Origin: Phoenix dactylifera
Taxonomy: Eukaryota > Streptophyta > Magnoliopsida > Arecales > Arecaceae
Assembly: GCF_009389715.1 (NCBI RefSeq)
Contig: NC_052397.1
Span: forward strand, 13,774,129 to 13,838,128
Direction: 5' to 3'
Length of the DNA stretch: 64,000 bases
Part shown: one piece after another, positions 9,076-50,526 of the stretch
Numbering within the stretch: the stretch's first letter is position 1
Layout: every line of letters starts with the position of its first letter
Made by a program: the position numbers and the translations under genes
Notes under the pieces: model-generated
Databases searched by the model: none
The model's input: the letters and a program-made list of their open reading frames with translations, nothing else
Told to the model about the DNA's origin: nothing

Positions 9076-9733
9076 TAGAGATGGGCATCGGGCCGCGCTG
9101 GGCCGGGCCCGGCCCAGGGTCCACTGGGCCACAGACCAAACGGGCCGTGCCTGAACCGGCCTGTTACTAAACGGGCCGTACCTGGCACGACCCACTTAAC
9201 CTAAAGGCTAAGCCCGGCATGACCCTAGGCCCGTGGGGTGGCGGGCCATGCTGAGCCCGGCACGGGCCGTGCCTGGCATGAGACGGCCCGTCTATCCAAA
9301 AAAAATAACCATTATGGGTGGCCCATAATGGCTATTTTTTTGGCCCATAACGGCTATTTATAGCTTTTTACCCATTTTGCTCCTCCCAACAGGCATAAAA
9401 CGGCTAATTTGAGGGGTATTTTGGGGAAAACAATTGAAGTCCTATAAATACCCCTTTCCTCCCTCATTCTCACCACACCAAACCAACTCTTCCGGGCTGG
9501 CCCGCGGGCTGTGCCGTGCTTGGTCCATGAATCGTGCCAGCTCAGGCCCTTATGGGCCGTGCCGGACTCGGCCCGCGGGCTAAAAATCCTTAACCCAGCT
9601 CGGCCCCTTTTTATGAGCCGTGCTTAGCACGGCCTGTTACTGTAGCAAGCGGGCCGTGCCTGGCACGACCCGGCACGAGGCACGGCCCGCTTCGTGCCAG
9701 GTCGTGCCGGGCCAGGCCCAATGCCCACCTCTA
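9076..9733 (+). mobile_element. Non-autonomous hAT element, deletion derivative of the 37863-41155 family
   Basis: It begins TAGAGATGGGCAT and ends with the near-complement ATGCCCACCTCTA. The 8-bp flanks ATCTTGAC and GTCCCGAC match at 5 of 8 positions, a decayed target-site duplication. Both ends carry arrays of GGGCCGTGCC and GGCACGGCCC, as in the full-length hAT element. The interior (about 9370-9490) aligns with the reverse complement of about 40740-40850 in the full element, including TATA box and leader, but the transposase gene is missing. It is therefore an internal-deletion derivative in the opposite orientation. Mobility would require transposase in trans. Confidence 0.88.
9452..9460 (+). 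promoter_or_regulatory. TATA box retained in the hAT derivative
   Basis: CTATAAATA is followed by the same pyrimidine-rich leader (CCTCCCTCATTCTCACCACA) that follows the TATA box of the full hAT element. Any transcript from it would contain no transposase. Confidence 0.55.
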
Positions 9734-10943: not shown

Positions 10944-13900
10944 ATGGCGGCCATAAGCTGCTTCTCCGCCTGCATCACCCGCGAGCCGGCGCCGGCCGTG
11001 CTCCCCCGCCCGGCTCTGCTGCCCTCCGGCGTGCTGCTGTCGAGGAGATGGCGGGCGGCGGTCGTGCTGCGCGCGGCGGCGGTCTCCAGGACCACGTCTG
11101 CGGAGGCAGAACCGGAGGCGGCGAAGAAGAGGCAGCCCAGGGGCATCACCAAGCCCCGGCCCGTCTCCCACGAGCTCCAGGTGCTGCTGGGCGTCAAGGA
11201 GATCCCTCGCACCCAAGCCCTCAAGCAGATATGGGCCTACATCAAAGAGAACAATCTCCAAGTACCTCTCTCTCTCTCTCTCCTAACCCTTCTCTCTTTT
11301 TAAGTTTGAATAATCTTTAATGGTGCAATCTGGTATTCAGAATTGGATAATATTTGCTTGCATATTACTTCTCGCGGATGCTTCTTATGCTTGTGTAGTT
11401 GACTGTTTATTGCTGGATAATGGGTACAAGTGTTGGGAGAATGTAGTGAGAGGTTAAAGATTGAATTTTGAAGCAAAATTTGCTTTTGCTTGGGGTTTGG
11501 TTATTACATAAAACAAATTAAGGCCATTTGCTAGTGACACATGTGGTGCTGGTAATGTGCAAAATGTCATCAGGTTTTCTTGGAGAAATTTTATGCAAGT
11601 TAATTCCGGAGACAGCAGATTCGTAAATGTTTTCTGGCACTTCCTCTGTGCATACATTCAGTAAAATATTGTACTGTTGGCCTTAGAGTTCCTCCCCCGA
11701 GACATTTCCCAACAATGTTATCATTGTTGTAGCCCAAGTCTTTTCGCATAAACATGGGCCTCCAATGGAGAGTGAATTCAATTCAATAAGGCTCTACAGA
11801 GTCATTTAGCGGACTTTCATAGCCAGTTGTGAACCTGAACCAATCCTCTAAGTGAAATAGTTATCTGATATGCTTTGAGCCCCAGGCAAGCCAGCCATCG
11901 ATTTAGAGGCTACTTGGTACCTAAAGGCCTTACTTTGGGTTATGTAGTTTGAATATATGGAGATCTAGTTATACTTATTCTTATTTGCTTGGACTCTTTT
12001 TGCTCAATGTTCTAGGGTTACAGGCCTTTTGTATCATAAAATTGTCTTTAAGTTGTCAAGAAATGCATTGGCCGTGCAGCATCAGAAAGGCTATTTTCAC
12101 GTAATTCACTCATCTTTGTTTCTATTGGGTATGATGTTTTTCTTTTCTCTTTCATATAAAAATACAAGATATTGATATAATCATTCCGTTGTATTCTTTG
12201 CTCATCTTGTTTGGCACGTTTCTTCTAATTCAACTGTACTAAAACTACATTTGTATATTCTGGTAGTATTCTATTGAATTTTGTGTCCTTGTTCCCCAGC
12301 AATTTTATGAATAATCCTAATTTAGTGCTAAACTTTTTTTAAGTCAATAAATTTAGTTTTCCGTCTAATAATATATATGTGGTATATTATTTTGTTTATC
12401 AATAACAAGTTAATACTCAATGAATGTATAGAGATGTGAGCCCAATGAGTCTTGGCTGATATCTTCTCAAAGCTGCTTTTAAATTATTGTTACATGTTTT
12501 TGAAAATCTTAATGTACCGTTTATCCATGCCTTTCCTTCCTGATGCCCATTACACAAAGCAATCCCTCATAGAATCAAATGTTATCTTTAAATCAACTAT
12601 GATAATTGGTTGCTCAATTTTTTATTAAGCCTAAGCACAAGAATAGATTCTGTTGTTAAACTTGTTAAACTCTAGGTTCTATCTAATAGTGAAGAAGCTT
12701 AAATTATTGTTGGGATGTAATAAATTATCAGGTGTCAAAACACATCATTCTTAAAAATTTAACAGTTCAAATTTGAAACAGATGGATTTTCGCTTTATTA
12801 GAGAGCTTAAAAATAATATGGTTTAGTGTTGATGCACTCCATAAATTGGATAGAGATTAGACAACCATGGGTCATGATGGAGCATTAAGTACAAGATTTT
12901 TTGAGCAATAACTTTAAGAATCATAGGAACCCATAGAACATGATGAAGGACTTGAAAACCCATGGATCCTAGTGAAGCAGCATTGCACTAATGTGGAAAG
13001 TCTTGGATGCCCATAGAACATGTAGATTTTAAGAGAGAATATTGGGGTAACACTTCATGTAAAGTGACTAGATTGAGTTGAGAGGTGCAGAAGAGCTTCC
13101 CTTTCTCGTGAGCTATTGGAATCTCCATGTCTACATGATCATCAGACTAGTCGGTACATTCTCAAGGTTTGCTCCTTTCACCTTGGTTTAACTATTGGCT
13201 AGTTACTAATGGTTCGCCGATTGTTGAAACAACTAAAGCATTCTTTGGCTAAAGGGTCTTAAAATGTTTTGGAAGCAAAGGAACAAGAATAGACAAGAGT
13301 GGTTCACCATACAAATTTATTGTTTTGATAGTCAAAAATCTCTATTTTTCCCCTTGGAGTAGACAAGAATGGATAAGAATGGAGCATGCTCAAAGATTGC
13401 ATTTACCAATCCACTATGAAGGACTATAACATTTTATTTCCTTTCCACATACAAGGATGCCTAGGGAAACACGATTGCATAAACATCTTAAGTGATATTC
13501 CTTTTTTAGGTTAAAACACATTTGCTTGGTACCAAAAAAAAAAAAACTAAAAAGTCAAGAATAGTGACCCATATGTGCCAGTTTTGGTTTTTTCGCCATG
13601 CTCTCACATAGATACATCATGACATGTGTGCCATGAGTGTGGCGTGCCAGCTACGCCACAAGGTTATAGTTCCCATGGATTGCCCTATGAAAAATAAGAA
13701 AGAAGTAAATTGAACCAACGGGGACATCCCAATCCCTATCTTGCCCAAGCAAAGGAAGGAAATTTACTTTTGGTTTTAAAGGTTGTTTGAAGAGATCACA
13801 TTCGATGGTTCGAATCTTCATTTTGGAACTCCAATATTCAAATTTCATAAAACTGAATCTAGCCTCAAATTTGATCAATCTTGTTGTAGTCTCTTACTAT

Positions 13901-15398: not shown

Positions 15399-16038
15399 AA
15401 AAAAAAAACCCAACAAAAAAAAAACAAAAAAAAAACAATTTTTAGAGGATCTTAAATGTTTCTTTTGTGGGTTGACTTGCCATATTTTGTCTTAATTCAT
15501 TATCAGTGTTCTATTGATTGTCTCTGTCAGTGCTATAATATTTTTGTCCAAAAGGTATCAATTATCTCTCATTCAATATTAGTGTAAACTCAAAATATGC
15601 ATGTATAATTATCCAAAAGCATAGCATGTTTATTTTGTAGAAATCGGAGGATCTGAATTCTCTTGCTTGTGTCTAACACTGAAACCAGTTGTTGCATCCA
15701 GATAAGATAGATTGTTTATATGAGTTATCATGCTATGTAAATTGCTTACTAACGTTCCTGTTACAGGCTCTGTAGCTTTGTTTTTCATATAGCATTTATT
15801 AATCTTTGTATGTCGTTCGTTCTAGATTACTATTTAGTTAATCTTTGTACTTCCATCAAATCCTATAATTCAGTGACATAGGTCATTGTGCATTTGTTTT
15901 TTGTGTTCTTTTTTACAGGATCCGGAGAACAAAAGGGTAATAGTTTGTGATGAGATGCTGAAAAAAATATTTGGAGGAAGAGATCGTGTTGGCTTCCTTG
16001 AAATCTCAGGATTGCTGAATCCTCACTTTTTGAAATGA
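10944..16038 (+). CDS. SWIB/MDM2-domain protein, probably plastid-targeted, two exons
   Basis: Exon 1 is 10944-11261 and exon 2 is 15919-16038 including TGA. The 4657-base intron has GT (11262-11263) and AG (15917-15918) ends and joins in phase 0, giving 145 residues. Residues 1-60 are rich in Ala, Arg, Ser and Pro with few acidic residues before position 54, a likely transit peptide. From about residue 67 (GITKPRPVSHELQVLLGVKE) to the C-terminus is one SWIB/MDM2 fold, including IPRTQALKQIWAYIKENNLQ in exon 1 and DPENKRVIVCDEMLKKIFGG in exon 2. SWIB domains occur in chromatin remodellers; small stand-alone plant versions are mostly organellar and nucleoid-associated, so a plastid DNA-associated role is inferred. 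The intron boundary sits at the usual ENNLQ|DP site. The stop codon lies inside an 84-bp tandem duplication. Confidence 0.93.
11268..11288. repeat. (CT)n tract at the start of the SWIB intron
   Basis: A short CT microsatellite beginning a few bases after the donor, similar in position to the CT tract just inside the AGP intron. Confidence 0.7.
13941..14398. mobile_element. Foldback MITE inside the SWIB intron
   Basis: The two halves are imperfect reverse complements along almost their whole length. TTGGCTACACTTAGTGGATC at about 13950 pairs with a right-hand copy reading TTTGGCTACATGAGTGGATC. CAAGCTGTTGGATGTGATTT pairs with CAAGCTGTTGGATATGATCT. ATGATTTGGATACCCCTCGC pairs with a similar block near the centre (about 14175). 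A GA tract abuts the left arm and a CT tract the right. The left arm has about 35 extra bases. There is no coding capacity. The transcript through the intron could form a hairpin with arms near 200 bases. Superfamily not assigned. Confidence 0.75.
14366..14520. repeat. Compound microsatellite (CT)n then (ACAT)-like repeats
   Basis: About 33 bases of CT are followed by roughly 120 bases of alternating ACACAT/ATATAC motifs. Confidence 0.9.
15363..15408. repeat. Poly(C)26-poly(A)20 block in the SWIB intron
   Basis: Twenty-six C are followed immediately by twenty A. Such tracts are unstable and hard to sequence, so exact lengths may be artefactual. Confidence 0.9.
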
Positions 16039-35135: not shown

Positions 35136-37854
35136 TATATAATTTCGATCCACACTTTGACCACCAAATAGTTATATAATTTTCTTACTGATCGGTAATA
35201 AGCAAAGATTTCATGACATCACCTTAGAAATATAACATTAGCTTGAAAGTATTATCAGCTATCATACTGAATTATATCAGAGATACTTCCGAATAAACAA
35301 TATGAAATGCAGTTTTTTTTTCTTTCTTTTTGAGAGAGAGAGAGAGAGAAAAGGTAGCTCCCCCATATTATAATTTATCTAAGTCCACCATTCATAATTT
35401 GAATCTAGAGCCTTTCCTTGTTAGAGAGAGTGCCTATAAATCTAAAAAAATAAAAGAATTAATGAATTGTTCAAGTGGTTGTTCCCTCTTTTTCTTTTCT
35501 TAAAGTTAGCCAAGGCCTAACCGGATTTTATTCAGAAAATGGTCTCAACTTGTTGTCCTCCTTGGATTACATATACGTACTACCAATTGACCCTTATATC
35601 CATAGAAATCTGAACATCTGCAATTATGCTAGTGTTAATAAAACACTGATTGACCTGTGAAGTTACTTTTTTATTAAGAATTATAACTTTGCAAAAAAAA
35701 AAAGAGAGTATTATTTTTAAAAAAATAGCATCTGCATTTCTCCCTCGTTAAGGGAGGTCGAGCAGCCTCCAAGCGTGATTGCGGGTATGGCTTGTCCTTG
35801 TCTTGTGACTCCTTTGCCATCATGGGAGATTACATTTGACAAAAGAAAAAATAATAATTAAACTTGTAGTTGAAAGGTATATATAGTGAAAAATGCTTCT
35901 GGTACCTACACAGTAGAACAGTGATCGATTTTGGTAACTCTACAGTAAACACGTCATGCCTAACACTAAAAAGTTATGGATTGTACCAATCCGTTCTTGC
36001 CACCTGGCAATATAATTGTTTATATACATTATACGTATAGATCGCACGACTGTAGATGCACAAAAGATTATTGATACATGTACAAGAGGAGATACCAATA
36101 AAAAAATTTAACTAGGACACTGAGAGGCTCATAGCTTTATTTATTGATGTATAAATATGGTTCTACGAAAAATAGGGATGTATGTATCTCAATTGGGTTG
36201 TATAGCAAATTTTACATTGTTTATTGGCTAATATAATAAAAGGTTTTAATATCTTCAACTCAGACCATGCCTATATGCATTCTATTTTTGAAAAAAAAAA
36301 TATAGACTCTAATACTACTTGTATACTTTTTGAAAACTAACGAGGGTCCAATACCCAACTTGACTGGTATATTTATGTTATACGAGATGCATCAAATTAT
36401 GTAGAAAATTATATTATGGGTACTCATAATAATTATATGATTACGCAAAGAATTGCTTGAAAAATTTAATTGAAGTCGTGAAACATGTAAAGAATCATAA
36501 TATTCGTGAAGTGTTTGATTATCACAATAATAATATCTATTCTTAAAAATTACCTTATGTTGAATATTACAATATTTTACTATTAAAAAAAGAAATGTTG
36601 CACCCCAAATTAAACATAAATATTATGATAATTTTAATAGTAATATTATTAAACATTTCTTTAATAGTAGAAATGAGGCTATTATTATGATTCATAAATC
36701 ATAATAATAGTTGCTTCATAAATCAAATTATCAATAGGTTAGCTTAAAAAAGTTGCTTCATAAATCAAATGAGGCTAAAGATTTCAACCTTAATAAATTA
36801 GTCCTGAAATTACAATAGGTTAGCTTAAAACACCATATTCTTTTAAACCAATGGGCTGCCCAATTTGTAGCCTTTACTTTTTTTTTTTTTTTTTAACGCT
36901 CTCACTCAAGTACACATCTTGATATTGAAAAGAAATAGATCGAGATATTACAAAGCAAATAGAGAGAAAAAAAAGAACGCAAAATCTATGGCCTACATCC
37001 ACGAGCGGGGTCGATCAAAGAAAGCTGCAATACCAGTACCTAAGAAAGTATAAAGAGGAGAAAACCCTACATAAAAATCCTCGGTTGCACAAACAATCAA
37101 GGACCCCTTAATGCAGAGATGTAATAGTTAAAGCTTATATGCCCATGGATACCTCTAAAAACACGACACCGTAACAAATCTAATACACAGACCGATATGC
37201 TTGGATCAACGGGAGAAGCTCATTGGATCACATTGATGCAGCAACTAAGAACTAGCATTATGTACATGAAGATGGTTGTTTGATTAATTTGTCATCACAG
37301 CATTTATAGGATCAAGCAATTTTCTTGTGTATTACTGGCGCCCCAGAGCATTTTCCTTATGCATGTTACATGGTAATTGGAGCCATAGGAATGCAACATC
37401 TCCATTTATACTACGCTAACATGAGTTTGCATCAATATAACCAAAGCATGCATCACCCATGGTGAAATTCCCATGAAGGCCCAAGGACCACCCATAGGCC
37501 GTCACATCCAATTCCTTTTTCATAGATCTAATAAATATAGAACAATGAAAGGGACCGAGCACAAAAATTTATATCATCCGTGAATGTCCTATTTCTAAGA
37601 TTACGAATCCAAGAGATCTATGTCGCGTGTCAAGTCGGATGTCAAACTAGATCCCCGGTACCACCCCCTTCTGGGGTAATGCCATCCAAGGGCCAGGATC
37701 CTATCATCCCATCATTGAATGGTCCATGATTAAGCGGGGCCCCATCTAGGGAGTTCGTTCGTACGTTCTTGAAATCATTTGACGTAGGAGATCTCCGGTC
37801 CAGGTGGGCCCGGTCGGGTTTAATGCCTGGTCCGGGTCGGTCCAGTTGCCACGA
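35136..37854. other. Intergenic, no gene seen
   Basis: AT-rich. A T-tract at 36878-36894 could be the poly(A) end of a minus-strand retroposed sequence covering roughly 36895-37260, but no domain is visible. Short blocks such as TTGCTTCATAAATCAAAT are duplicated at 36711-36770. Confidence 0.4.
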
Positions 37855-37862
37855 CCTCCACG
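37855..37862. repeat. Left target-site duplication of the hAT element
   Basis: CCTCCACG, identical to 41156-41163 on the other side of the element. Eight bases is the hallmark length for hAT transposons. Confidence 0.92.
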
Positions 37863-37867
37863 TAGAG

Positions 37868-38180
37868 TTGGGCACTGAGCCGGGCCGTACGTGGAGGGCA
37901 CTGAGCCGGGCCGCCCACGGCCCGGCACGAAGCGGGCCGTGCCTGGCACGGCCCGCTTGCTACAGTGCCGGGCCGTGCCTGGCACGGCCCATTTGAGAGG
38001 GCCGTGCTGGGTCACAGGGTACTGGCCCGCGGGCCGAGCCCGGCACGGCCCGCTTCGGGCCTGGGCCGGCACGGCCCGCTCTAGGCCCGCGGGCCAAGCA
38101 CGGCACGGCCCATAAGGGCCTGGGCCGGGCTGGCCCGCGGGCCTGGCACGGTCCGGGCCTGGGCCCGGCCCGGCCCGATA
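37868..38180. repeat. Left subterminal palindromic array of the hAT element
   Basis: Repeated GGGCCGTGCC, GGCACGGCCC and GCCCGCGGGCC units. One palindrome has perfect 14-base arms (37930-37943 and 37945-37958) separated by one base. It is far richer in GC than the flanking DNA. Confidence 0.85.
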
Positions 38181-38324
38181 AAAATTAATGCTTCATAAAT
38201 TTCCTAAAAAAATTAATAAATATTGAAAACTAAGGATTTATGAATATAAAGCCACCTTAATGGTGGGGGGTTTGGCATAGACCCCTACCAGTTTATTAAT
38301 TTAAATCAAAATGGTACATGAAGG

Positions 38325-38417
38325 GAGGTTTGGACCTTGGTCTGACCTCTAGAATACAATAAGAAACTAAGAAAGGGCCGAGGTTTGGACCTTGGTCTGA
38401 CCTCCAGAATACAATAA
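38325..38417. repeat. Short direct duplication in the hAT element, period 55
   Basis: GAGGTTTGGACCTTGGTCTG at 38325 and again at 38380, each followed by ACCTC(T/C)AGAATACAATAA. It lies downstream of the transposase stop. Confidence 0.85.
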
Positions 38418-38476
38418 AAATGTACAATTATAAAAAATTAAGAAATCTTACTAATCATCAGTGAATCAGTATTCAC

Positions 38477-38504
38477 TCTTCAGTCTTCAGTCTTCAGTCT
38501 TCAG
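38477..38504. repeat. (TCTTCAG)4 minisatellite at the transposase stop
   Basis: Four 7-base units. On the gene strand, CTGAAGA repeats supply the last codons and the TGA stop of the resumed frame. Confidence 0.9.
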
Positions 38505-40504
38505 TAGTGTTTGTATCATCATCATCAGAGGATGTTGTATTATGTCCACCTTTATCTTGAAGTCTTGCCTCAGCATCCAACCAATCCTTGAAGCAGAGAA
38601 GCATCTCCACCGTTTCGCCCGTCATCCTACTTCTCTTTTCGTCAAGAACACGCCGACCTGCACTAAAAGCGGATTCCGATGCTACCGTGGACATCGGCAC
38701 AGCTAAAGGTGGACATAACAGGATATTGATTTCTAACACTCTTCCACCAAGATAATACATCTAGATTCTCTATTTGATTTTCATCATATGCAGACTGAAG
38801 ATCATTTTGTAAATAAAATTCTAGTTCACTACTTAAAGATGAAGAAGATGAAGAGGAACTTGAAGCATGTGTGTGTCTTCTCTGTGCAATGAATGAAAAA
38901 ATAGATGACGAACGAGAACTACTAGAAGAAGAAATAGAGGTTTGTATTTGTGTTCTAGATCCACGAATTTTTTCATCATATATAGCATAAATATCATAAA
39001 GAAGTTGTTTTACCTCATCTTTAGCAGATTCAGAATCTTGATTCATATTTTCAGAATATGCATCAAGTAAAATTAGCACGCCATTTAATTTAACTCTAGG
39101 ATCAAATACAGCAGCTAAGTTATGCATAGGACATATCTTGTCCCAATACTCATTCCATTTAGATTCCATTAGGTCAATAATAGGCATTAAAACATCATCA
39201 TATCTATGTTCTGCAAATTTTTGACTAATTATATATGCTTGTTGTAAAAATGAACATGAAGTAGGGTAATAAATACCAGAAAGAACATTGGTAGCATTAT
39301 AAAAACTAAGCAAAAAATCTTCCAAAATTTTTCCTTTATTCCAATCAGTTTCAGACAATGTAAAGCCTAATCCACGATCATTAATATATGCACTTAATAA
39401 GTTTTTATATGGGTATGCATCATGTATCATGCTATATGTGGAGTTCCAACGAGTAATTACATCAAGTTTAAATTTTTTAAAACGTTTACCATGATTTATG
39501 CATAATTCCTTAAATTCTTGAAGTCTTGATCTTGAAGCATGAATAAAAGAAACTGCATTTCTAATTTTTGAAATCACATCTTGAATCATGCCCATGCCAG
39601 CTTGAACAGAAAGATTTAAGATATGACATGCACATCTAATATGCAGTAAATTTCCATCTAATATGGGATGCAATGAGTCTTTTAATAATGCAACAGCAGA
39701 ATTATTATTAGATGCATTATCAAAAGTAATAGACATAATTTTATCATTAATATTATATGAACATGCAGTTTGATAAATAATATTTGAAATTTGTTGCCCA
39801 GAATGTGGAAAATCAAAAGCACGAAAAGCAAGAATACATTTATTTAATTGCCAATCATTATCAATATAATGAGCAGTAATGGCAATAAAACAATTACTAC
39901 CTACAGATGCTGACCAAATATCAGAAGTTAATGAAATTTTTACATTTAAAGTAGAAAGTGTTTCAATTAAATTTTGTTTCATTGCTAAAAAGTTGGTCAT
40001 AGCTACTCTTCTAAATGTACGCCTACTAGTTCTTTTGTAAGCAGGTTGTAGGTTTAATTGAACATATTCTTCAAAATTAAAAGATTCACATAAATTAAAA
40101 GGTAATTCATCCTTAACTATCCATTTTACAAGTGCTTTTCTTTGATTTTCATGATTATATGCAAAATTACCTACAAGTAATCCCCCTTGTATATTAAGGG
40201 TACTTTGAGTTTGAGCATGAGAATCATGCATCCTATGACTCTCTTGATGTCTTTTTAAATGCCCTGTTCCCCCACTACTACTACAACTATAAAGTTTGGC
40301 ACATTTTTTACATCTAGCTTTCCAGACTCCATCAACCATAACTCTATCAAATTCATTCCATACAGCACTAGTCCTCTTACGAGAAGAGGTTTGATCTTCA
40401 CTCGGTTCACCAGTTCTAGAGGAACTAGGAACATGGGGTTGGGGATTAGTTTCTTCTCCCTCAGAAACAGGAATGCCAAACTGACTTTCCTCAAAAGATG
40501 ACAT
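38494..40504 (-). pseudogene. hAT transposase, BED zinc finger type, with one frameshift
   Basis: The reading frame opens at ATG 40504 and runs 613 codons. Near the N-terminus is a BED-type finger (VWNEFDRVMVDGVWKARCKK, CAKLYSC, then GHLKRHQESH). The RNase-H-like core shows SLTSDIWSA and ITFDNASNNN with the expected acidic residues, RCACHILNLSVQAG and VITRWNSTYSMI. The C-terminal dimerisation domain begins LDVLSWWKSVRNQYPVMS, then the frame is lost near 38705-38716. It resumes in another frame with LAVPMSTVASESAFSAGRRV and LDEKRSRMTGETVEMLLCFK and stops at 38494. Compared with family members, a few residues between YPV and LAVP are missing, pointing to a small deletion. As read it makes a truncated enzyme lacking most of the dimerisation domain. 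A sequencing error or recoding cannot be excluded. Confidence 0.9.
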
Positions 40505-40771
40505 ATCTATGATTAATTCAAAAAATAAAAACTAACCGCAAGGAGGAATTGAGTAGAGGGTCGGAGGGCAGAGGCAGAGCCGAGATTCCGAGCTTCCTCT
40601 TGTGCTCTCAACAGAAGCGACCTTCTCTTCTCAACAGGAACCTCCTCTTGTGTAGCACTTGAACAAACTAAAAATTAAATTGCTAGAAGAGCACTTTAGA
40701 AGAGAGAAATAATAGCAGTAGAGAAGGAGAGAATGAGAGGTTTGGTGTGGTGAGAATGAGGGAGGAATGGG

Positions 40772-40781
40772 CTATTTATAG
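40772..40781 (-). promoter_or_regulatory. TATA box of the hAT transposase gene
   Basis: CTATAAATAG on the minus strand, about 270 bases before the transposase ATG, followed by a pyrimidine-rich leader with CTCATTCTCACCACACCAAA. The same promoter block is kept in the 9076-9733 derivative. Confidence 0.65.
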
Positions 40782-40899
40782 AAGCCTAAAATTTTTTCCC
40801 AAAATACCCCTCAATTCAGCCGTTATTGGACTGTTGGGAGGGGTAAAATGGACTTTTTCCCGAAAATAGCCGTTGGAAACGGCTATTTTCCTCCCCCTC

Positions 40900-41150
40900 T
40901 CCAGACGGGCCGTGCCGGCACGGCCCGTCTGGAGCCGTTGCGGGCCGTGCCTGGCACGGCCCGTGGCGTGCCGTGCCCGGCCCGGCCCGCCAATAGACGG
41001 GCCTGGGGCCGGGCCGGGCTGGCGTTCCGTGCTGGACGGGCCGTGCCTGGCACGGCCCGCTTCATAAGCGGGCCGGGCCAGGCACGGCCCGTTTAGTCCT
41101 TTGGCCCGGTGGGCCTGGGCCGGGCCGGCCCGGCACGGCCCGTTGCCCAA
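40900..41150. repeat. Right subterminal palindromic array of the hAT element
   Basis: The same GGGCCGTGCC/GGCACGGCCC units as on the left, in both orientations, including a perfect hairpin at 41038-41058. It lies upstream of the transposase promoter, so transposase binding could also regulate transcription. Confidence 0.85.
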
Positions 41151-41155
41151 CACTA

Positions 41156-41163
41156 CCTCCACG
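41156..41163. repeat. Right target-site duplication of the hAT element
   Basis: CCTCCACG, identical to 37855-37862. Confidence 0.92.
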
Positions 41164-48893: not shown

Positions 48894-49030
48894 TGTGAGG
48901 ACCCGTGCAGGCGTGTGTTTAGTTCCACATCGGTTATTCGCTGGGTAGATCTTAGGTACTTATATAGGATCAAGGAACCCAAATAATACCTTCCGGCTAG
49001 TCATTTTGGGTGAGGTCCTGGGTTGTTACA
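48894..49030 (+). repeat. 5' LTR of the TRIM
   Basis: It contains TTTAGTTCCACATCGGTTAT and ends TGTTACA. The LTR shows no 5S-rRNA-like block, so it is not a Cassandra-type TRIM. Confidence 0.93.
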
Positions 49031-49032
49031 AA

Positions 49033-49044
49033 TGGTATCAGAGC
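49033..49044 (+). other. TRIM primer-binding site
   Basis: TGGTATCAGAGC, complementary to the 3' end of plant initiator-methionine tRNA. The same site occurs twice in the tandem TRIM at 57163-57817. Confidence 0.9.
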
Positions 49045-49195
49045 GGACCCGACCCATAACCTATGTGGATTAGGGGACACTGCAGCACGGATCCATTGGG
49101 GCTGACCACGGACCAATCATGGTGTTTGTGATTATATTTGAATGGATTTAAACCCTTAGCCTGGCGAGGACGTCAGGATTTGAACGGGAGGAGTA

Positions 49196-49332
49196 TGTGA
49201 GGACCCGTGCAGGCGTGTGTTTAGTCCCACATCGGTTATTCGCTGGGTAGATCTTAGGTACTTATACAGGATTAAGGAACCCAAATAATACCTTCCGGCT
49301 AGTCATTTTGGGTGAGGTCCTGGATTGTTACA
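49196..49332 (+). repeat. 3' LTR of the TRIM
   Basis: Same length as the 5' LTR with four transitions between them. Confidence 0.93.
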
Positions 49333-49521
49333 ATATTATTCATCGTGATCATTGTAGTGTGAGAACACTAGGTTGTGATAGAGGGACTCACAAGAATTTC
49401 TTTTGCACATTTTCTATAGTGATTCTTGGAAATGCTACAGTTGACGAATCACAATTGCAATGAAATGTATGGCCTATTGAAAAATGGGCTGGACTTAGCC
49501 GTTGGGTCTATAAGCTAAATT

Positions 49522-49880
49522 TAAGGCTGCAAATGGGTCGGGTCGACCCGTGACCCGACCCGACCCGACCCGCGTAGACCCGACCCGACCCGAATTTTAG
49601 GACTCGCGGGTCCGGGTCGGGTCCTAAAATTGGACCCGAATCATTTTCTGGGTCGGATCTGGGTTTACCAAACGGATCCGATCCGACCCGAATGGACCCG
49701 AAGAGAGAGACCGCATCCTGCGCATCTAGCACCTACTCCCACAATCTAGCTAGCATCTAGCCTTCCCCCAAATCTACGTCATTACTCACCGTCTCGGCTC
49801 CATCGCCTTGCATGCCTAGATTACTCCACCCACTAATTACCCATGCATTCAAGTGTCCAATGACATGGCCTCTGTCGTAA

Positions 49881-49915
<35 letters not shown>

Positions 49916-50526
49916 ATATATATATATATATATATCTACCCAGTTAGAGGCCTCCTTGCGCCGACCTTTCTCTGCTGAGCTCGTACCCCGTTTCGCCCTT
50001 TGGGAAAAGCCCAGCCCAAGTGGCAGCTTTCCCTGATACAAACCGACTCCCTTTGCAGCTCCTCTTGAGGTCAATCTAATGGGCCGACAGCGACACCAGC
50101 CCATCCCTACGCTCGTGCCAGCAGTCCATCCTACCCTTCGATCTCTTTCGGCTCCCGTTCCTCTTCCCATTTATATCACGGTGGCCTTTGGCATTGGATG
50201 AGGCACTTGAGAACAACTGCACCACCAGCTTATGGGAACCACGACGCCATGGCTTTGGCTTCCGGGTTGGGAGCCGAGCTCAAGGAATGGAAGCAATGGG
50301 AAGCGTTTTGGGTTGAAGAAACCTCTATTCCATAAGCACAAAAAAATTGGACCCGATCGGATCCGAACCCGACCCGAATCAGACCCGGACCCGACCCGAA
50401 CCCGACCCGACCCAACCCGATCTTCAACCGGGTCGGGTCCGGGTCCAAAATTGGGACCCGAACAAAAAACCGGGTCGGATCGGGGTCACCTAGGACCCGA
50501 CCCGACCCGACCCATTTGCACCCCTA
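49522..50526. mobile_element. Non-autonomous hAT element, 1005 bp, GACCCG-type
   Basis: The left end reads TAAGGCTGCAAATGGGTCGG and the complement of the right end TAGGGGTGCAAATGGGTCGG. The perfect 8-bp duplication GCTAAATT flanks it (49514-49521 and 50527-50534). Both subterminal regions are arrays of GACCCGACCC units. The interior (about 49730-50330) has a different, unrelated composition with CT and AT microsatellites and an open minus-strand frame of 137 codons without a known domain. It may be captured host DNA. No transposase is present. Confidence 0.92.
49885..49935. repeat. (CT)n-(AT)n compound microsatellite
   Basis: About 30 bases of CT followed by about 22 of AT, inside the hAT element. 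Confidence 0.9.

Follow-up and report, generated by a model that had tools for sequence, protein, structure and literature searches.

The date palm (Phoenix dactylifera) window analysed here, a continuous stretch of 64,000 nucleotides, contains a full-length hAT element of 3,293 bp at 37863-41155. Its transposase gene is broken at one point, and its left end bears a second scar. We consider it very probable that this full-length date palm hAT was later made non-autonomous by a short-range inverted template switch in its transposase gene, and that a second switch of this type scarred its left end. The features on which this explanation is based are listed in Table 1.

Table 1. Coordinates of the hAT element, its two scars and a related short element in the window.
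Feature	Position	Strand	Evidence
Left target site duplication, 8 bp, CCTCCACG	37855..37862	no strand	sequence match to right copy
Right target site duplication, CCTCCACG	41156..41163	no strand	perfect match to left copy
Left terminal inverted repeat, TAGAGTTGGGCA	37863..37874	+	11/12 match to right end
Right terminal inverted repeat, TAGTGTTGGGCA (minus-strand reading)	41144..41155	-	11/12 match to left end
Left subterminal GC-rich array with palindromic GGGCCGTGCC/GGCACGGCCC units	37863..38180	no strand	word counts, folding
Right subterminal GC-rich palindromic array	40896..41155	no strand	word counts
TATA box TATAAATA, transposase promoter	40773..40780	-	sequence motif
Main transposase ORF, 613 codons from ATG 40504, with BED-like finger, RNase-H fold and first two catalytic Asp; out of frame past the break	38663..40504	-	
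Transposase 3' part in shifted frame, with remaining dimerisation domain and catalytic Glu	38494..38703	-	ORF, Pfam, alignment
Frame break (net -14 nt, filler at least 3 nt), which forms the recipient arm of the 15-bp inverted repeat	38704..38718	-	comparison with relatives' residues
Donor arm of 15-bp inverted repeat, inside C-terminal codons	38540..38554	+	exact inverted match
Left-end scar, putatively post-insertion; 18-bp stretch twice (37870-37887, 37896-37913) with TACGTGGAGG at the join	37870..37913	+	sequence comparison
Related non-autonomous element, 658 bp, no ORF of at least 150 aa	9076..9733	-	70-73% identity in two aligned ends

Structure of the element

The element is a complete hAT transposon, a cut-and-paste element probably of the BED-finger type known from plants, that was inserted with an 8-bp duplication. 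The hAT superfamily is recognised by 8-bp target site duplications, short terminal inverted repeats, an RNase-H transposase with a C-terminal dimerisation domain, and alignable DDE residues. Both copies of the duplication were identical, and the first 12 positions of the terminal repeats were alike at 11 of 12. The GC content of the subterminal arrays (left 318 bp, right 260 bp) was 78%. With both strands counted, the left array contained 7 copies of GGGCCGTGCC, the right array 8 and the element interior none; elsewhere in the window, the related element near 9076-9733 had 5 copies and the remainder had none. As single-stranded DNA, the left array folded better than 100 of 100 shuffles (z = -10.3). 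The interior holds a single gene on the minus strand, with its TATA box at 40780. The first-pass annotation had described a full-length hAT element with a perfect 8-bp duplication, palindromic subterminal arrays and a TATA promoter, and the boundaries, the GGGCCGTGCC counts and the position of TATAAATA bear this out.

The CpG observed/expected ratio was 0.79 and 0.87 in the two arrays, 0.39 in the interior and 0.76 in the short element at 9076-9733, and as a measure of the age of the element at 37863-41155 it was not decisive. The insertion was regarded as recent because the target duplication is perfect and the frame is otherwise open. The left flank (37800-37854) is also GC-rich and has GGTCCGGGTCGGTCC-like words; it is perhaps a remnant of another element that served as the insertion site. 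The window yielded neither an Rfam family at the gathering threshold nor a tRNA.

Transposase gene and its relatives

The results of the Pfam search showed that the transposase domains are spread over two frames in this copy. The first piece matched the hAT-like RNase-H domain (E 2.6e-9), and the second matched part of Dimer_Tnp_hAT (E 3.6e-14). The first piece ends in the other part of the dimerisation domain, which was matched below threshold (E 0.005); the domain resumes in another frame, which is open over 38497-38730. The same combination of RNase-H and dimerisation domains was also seen in relatives. The near-complete BED-finger transposase that had been proposed for this element was supported in its RNase-H and dimerisation domains, and its finger fell below the Pfam cut-off (E 0.047 in P0001, 0.089 in P0003 and 0.021 in P0004). 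In the relatives P0005 and P0010, the BED finger was above the cut-off. Three of its ligand positions, C66, C69 and H87 (P0003 numbering), were conserved in 90% or more of 44 relatives, which were picked by eye from the longer rows among the 120 matches listed out of 253 (alignment A2).

These 253 relatives were obtained by a search of approximately 5.8 billion proteins. Among the 120 matches listed, two were more than 80% identical to the transposase, namely P0003 (97% identical, 675 aa, 6 member sequences) and P0004 (84% identical, 670 aa, 16 member sequences). Both represent the same transposase, known as proteins, and both are continuous across the point where the frame breaks in the window. 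Because they read through the break, intact close relatives exist at the protein level; in this genome, an intact sister copy acting as the source of the family, as the first-pass annotation had suggested, is hypothetical. Compared with P0003, 584 of 598 aligned residues before the break were identical (14 substitutions and 1 gap), and after it all of the 70 residues were identical. The break is the sole frame lesion seen in the transposase gene. An autonomous element has an intact transposase gene, and this one is interrupted at 38704-38718. A collection of viral contigs gave no match to patterns drawn from P0003.

Catalytic residues and loss of function

P0001 alone matched no solved structure, but the profile of the 44 relatives matched the Hermes transposase (E 2.6e-43). 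The predicted structure of P0003 had a mean pLDDT of 82.1 and a pTM of 0.76, and Hermes was the best Foldseek match to this fold (9.8e-18). By positions counted by eye, D196 of P0003 aligns with Hermes 180 and E616 with Hermes 572; D263 sits 2-3 columns off Hermes 248, with no exact match. D196, D263 and E616 were invariant in 44 of the 44 relatives aligned. This DDE alignment was assessed on relatives without the broken copy, in which the Glu is out of frame. In Hermes, changes of D180, D248 and E572 are described as affecting activity, and E572 mutants as carrying out no transposition step (PMC2533014).

The residues missing at the break are covered by helix 596-606 in the P0003 model. Within this helix, A602 was conserved in 43/44 relatives, D604 in 39/44 and L606 in 40/44 (P0003 numbering). 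Since the break lies within the helix and just upstream of the catalytic Glu, no catalytic activity is to be expected of the truncated product. Judging from homology, this copy should encode no working transposase, with a conserved helix partly missing and the third catalytic residue out of frame. On reasoning, recoding or splicing past the break is disfavoured, because the missing residues belong to a helix and the two closest relatives, P0003 and P0004, run through this place unbroken.

It is very unlikely that the truncated 613-codon product has been retained as a putative DNA-binding repressor of the family. The N-terminal half and the open frame are intact, and hAT DNA-binding domains are reported to have been domesticated repeatedly (PMC8097297). 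However, one copy was seen, and a recently broken gene would look identical.

Sequence of the frame break

One break in the dimerisation domain with a change of frame had been noted in the first-pass annotation, and this was found at 38704-38718. The few residues described as missing there are indeed lost; the lesion itself is more exactly a net loss of 14 nt with a filler of at least 3 nt. This loss was measured against the residues of P0003 and P0004, the pre-mutation bases being deduced from the relatives' proteins alone. Under any codon choice for these residues, a pure deletion cannot yield the junction, and the filler must comprise at least 3 nt. The junction, 38718-38704 on the minus strand, forms one arm of an exact 15-bp inverted repeat whose second arm lies 149 bp away. 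In the other arm, the 3 filler nucleotides adjoin the shared word. The two arms can pair within one strand (z = -2.3), and 2 of 200 shuffles folded equally well. Just downstream of the transposase gene, at 38325-38420, a 41-bp stretch with a partly palindromic core is repeated 55 bp apart (95%).

The left-end scar

The left-end scar is an addition to the first-pass annotation, which did not describe it. TACGTGGAGG (37888-37897) is the reverse complement of 37855-37864, that is, of the target duplication plus TA, the two bases with which the element begins. When words with fewer than three different bases were excluded as matches, 37 of the 58,643 positions outside the hAT elements were followed within 60 bp by an inverted 10-mer partner. 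Because the template of the scar includes the flanking DNA of this locus, the scar would have arisen after the insertion here. No microhomology was seen at its first jump.

In maize Ds2-31, a duplication-deletion at one end is thought to interfere with mobility (PMC3260210). By this precedent, the left-end scar may hinder the date palm copy even when active transposase is present. An intact relative may still be able to move the copy in trans, although the copy's altered left end may make this less efficient.

Origin of the two scars

Short-range template switches are described as mutation clusters in which nearby sequence is copied inverted, often giving a perfect inverted repeat, and the published test compares ancestral DNA (PMC7954356). 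Inverted copies were present at both scars of the date palm element, the ancestral sequence at the frame break being taken from proteins. At the frame break, synthesis would have reached an 8-nt word and then jumped to the complementary copy 149 bp away. After the jump, three further bases would have been copied from the inverted template, and rejoining at a 4-nt match downstream would have left the net loss of 14 nt, as read from the junction. A second switch, following insertion, would have duplicated 18 bp beside the left terminus, where the flank/element boundary would also have been copied in inverted orientation.

Within this explanation, both scars could belong to a single event, in which the element was excised and the gap was then filled by copying the sister chromatid, the template being switched twice over the leftmost 860 bp. 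We hold this version to be possible but not probable. Both scars lie within the leftmost 856 bp, and the flank was used as the donor for the left scar, hence the element was in place. In rice, where DNA transposons of all superfamilies were pooled, foreign segments were reported in 58 of 94 putative excisions (PMC4423477). On the other hand, there is no temporal tie between the scars, the frame break could predate this insertion, and switching at a replication fork accounts for each scar separately. A doubtful proposal is that both scars stem from one abortive, error-prone repair of the gap following an attempted excision at this locus, with the element's GC-palindromic subterminal arrays causing the polymerase to switch strands twice.

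Unlike template switching, a plain deletion of 14 nt by slippage or end joining would need an ancestor with a Thr codon and a 15-bp inverted match arising by chance, and we believe it to be unlikely. Deletion is the commoner mutation type. Thr instead of Ala would make a 14-nt deletion sufficient, and Thr is found in that column in 2 of the 44 relatives. However, both closest relatives have Ala, an extra substitution would be required, and the arm of a chance repeat must land exactly on the junction. This repeat was the longest exact inverted repeat in the non-array interior. A Markov null of 200 first-order sequences contained 2 inverted pairs of at least 15 bp overall and none within 300 bp. 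In real DNA of the window, such pairs were not rare: 22 comparable stretches, from which two-letter words had been removed before counting, contained 6 pairs, 5 of them within 300 bp. Read by eye, 2 of the 6 came from A-rich DNA, 3 from the GC arrays of hAT-like elements and 1 from elsewhere. Because the window DNA is richer in inverted repeats than the Markov sequences, the argument for template switching rests on the arm hitting the junction and supplying the filler.

The first-pass annotation had also allowed that the frame was misread at one place. A sequencing or assembly error at a locus with an intact gene fits the 613 codons that are otherwise open and a junction known from the assembled sequence alone, but it is most improbable, because a net change of 14 nt, with filler that copies a sequence lying inverted at a distance of 149 bp, has the appearance of a mutation and not of a base-calling or homopolymer slip, and the left end bears a second scar of the same type.

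Comparison with known elements

Hermes, a hAT element of the house fly (PDB 4d1q, 8edg), has a transposase fold and catalytic residues in common with the date palm family. The two differ in sequence, with 16-19% identity in structural alignments between insect and plant, and the GC-palindrome subterminal arrays of the date palm element are a further difference from Hermes. Rice nDart1/aDart1 is also a plant hAT system, and its terminal repeats are presumably similar to those of the date palm element. nDart1 resembles the short element of 658 bp at 9076-9733; nDart1 elements (nDart1-3 is 607 bp) are reported to be mobilised by the autonomous aDart1-27 (PMC4585910). The 8-bp duplication, short terminal repeats, subterminal transposase-binding repeats and non-autonomous derivatives are points of likeness to maize Ac/Ds, which was compared by description; the subterminal motif is AAACGG in Ac/Ds, in contrast to GGGCCGTGCC here. 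Maize B73 is reported to have 3 Ac-like copies that differ from Ac by small indels (PMC3260210).

Other elements and genes in the window

The two aligned ends of the short element at 9076-9733 correspond to the promoter end and the opposite array of the element at 37863-41155, and the array motif is the same. Its terminal repeats are TAGAGATGGGCA and TAGAGGTGGGCA. The target duplication looks decayed (ATCTTGAC and GTCCCGAC, 5/8 alike, with all three differences being transitions), so that the insertion is probably older. At 49522-50526 lies a third hAT-like element, which is 1,005 bp long and lacks any ORF of at least 150 aa; it has a perfect 8-bp duplication (GCTAAATT), ends TAAGGCTGCAAATGGGTCGGGTC and TAGGGGTGCAAATGGGTCGGGTC, and GGGTCGG arrays. 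At 48898-49335, two near-identical direct copies with GAGGACCCGTGCAGGCGTGTGTTTAGT were seen by eye approximately 300 bp apart, and these are perhaps the ends of another repeat. The neighbouring gene encodes a SWIB-domain protein, with exons read by eye at approximately 10944-11261 and 15919-16035. This protein was identical to a Phoenix dactylifera protein at 145 of 145 residues, and the next matches were coconut (92%) and oil palm (82%), which assigns the window to date palm or to a plant extremely close to it.

Significance

The element is of an ordinary, well-known kind, a plant hAT. A look through the titles and abstract openings of the open-access literature found no description of it, which is not evidence that it is unpublished. 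What is new here is that the break is read as templated, that a second scar, which would postdate insertion, was recognised, that the catalytic Glu is out of frame, and that intact relatives exist at the protein level. Since these relatives are intact and nearly identical, they point to a possibly mobile hAT family in a crop tree. If the abortive-repair proposal were true, cut-and-paste mobility would be self-mutating, and an autonomous hAT could become defective in a single step. Read as very probable template switching, the element offers a legible case in which an autonomous element would have become defective through short inverted template switches and not through scattered point mutations.
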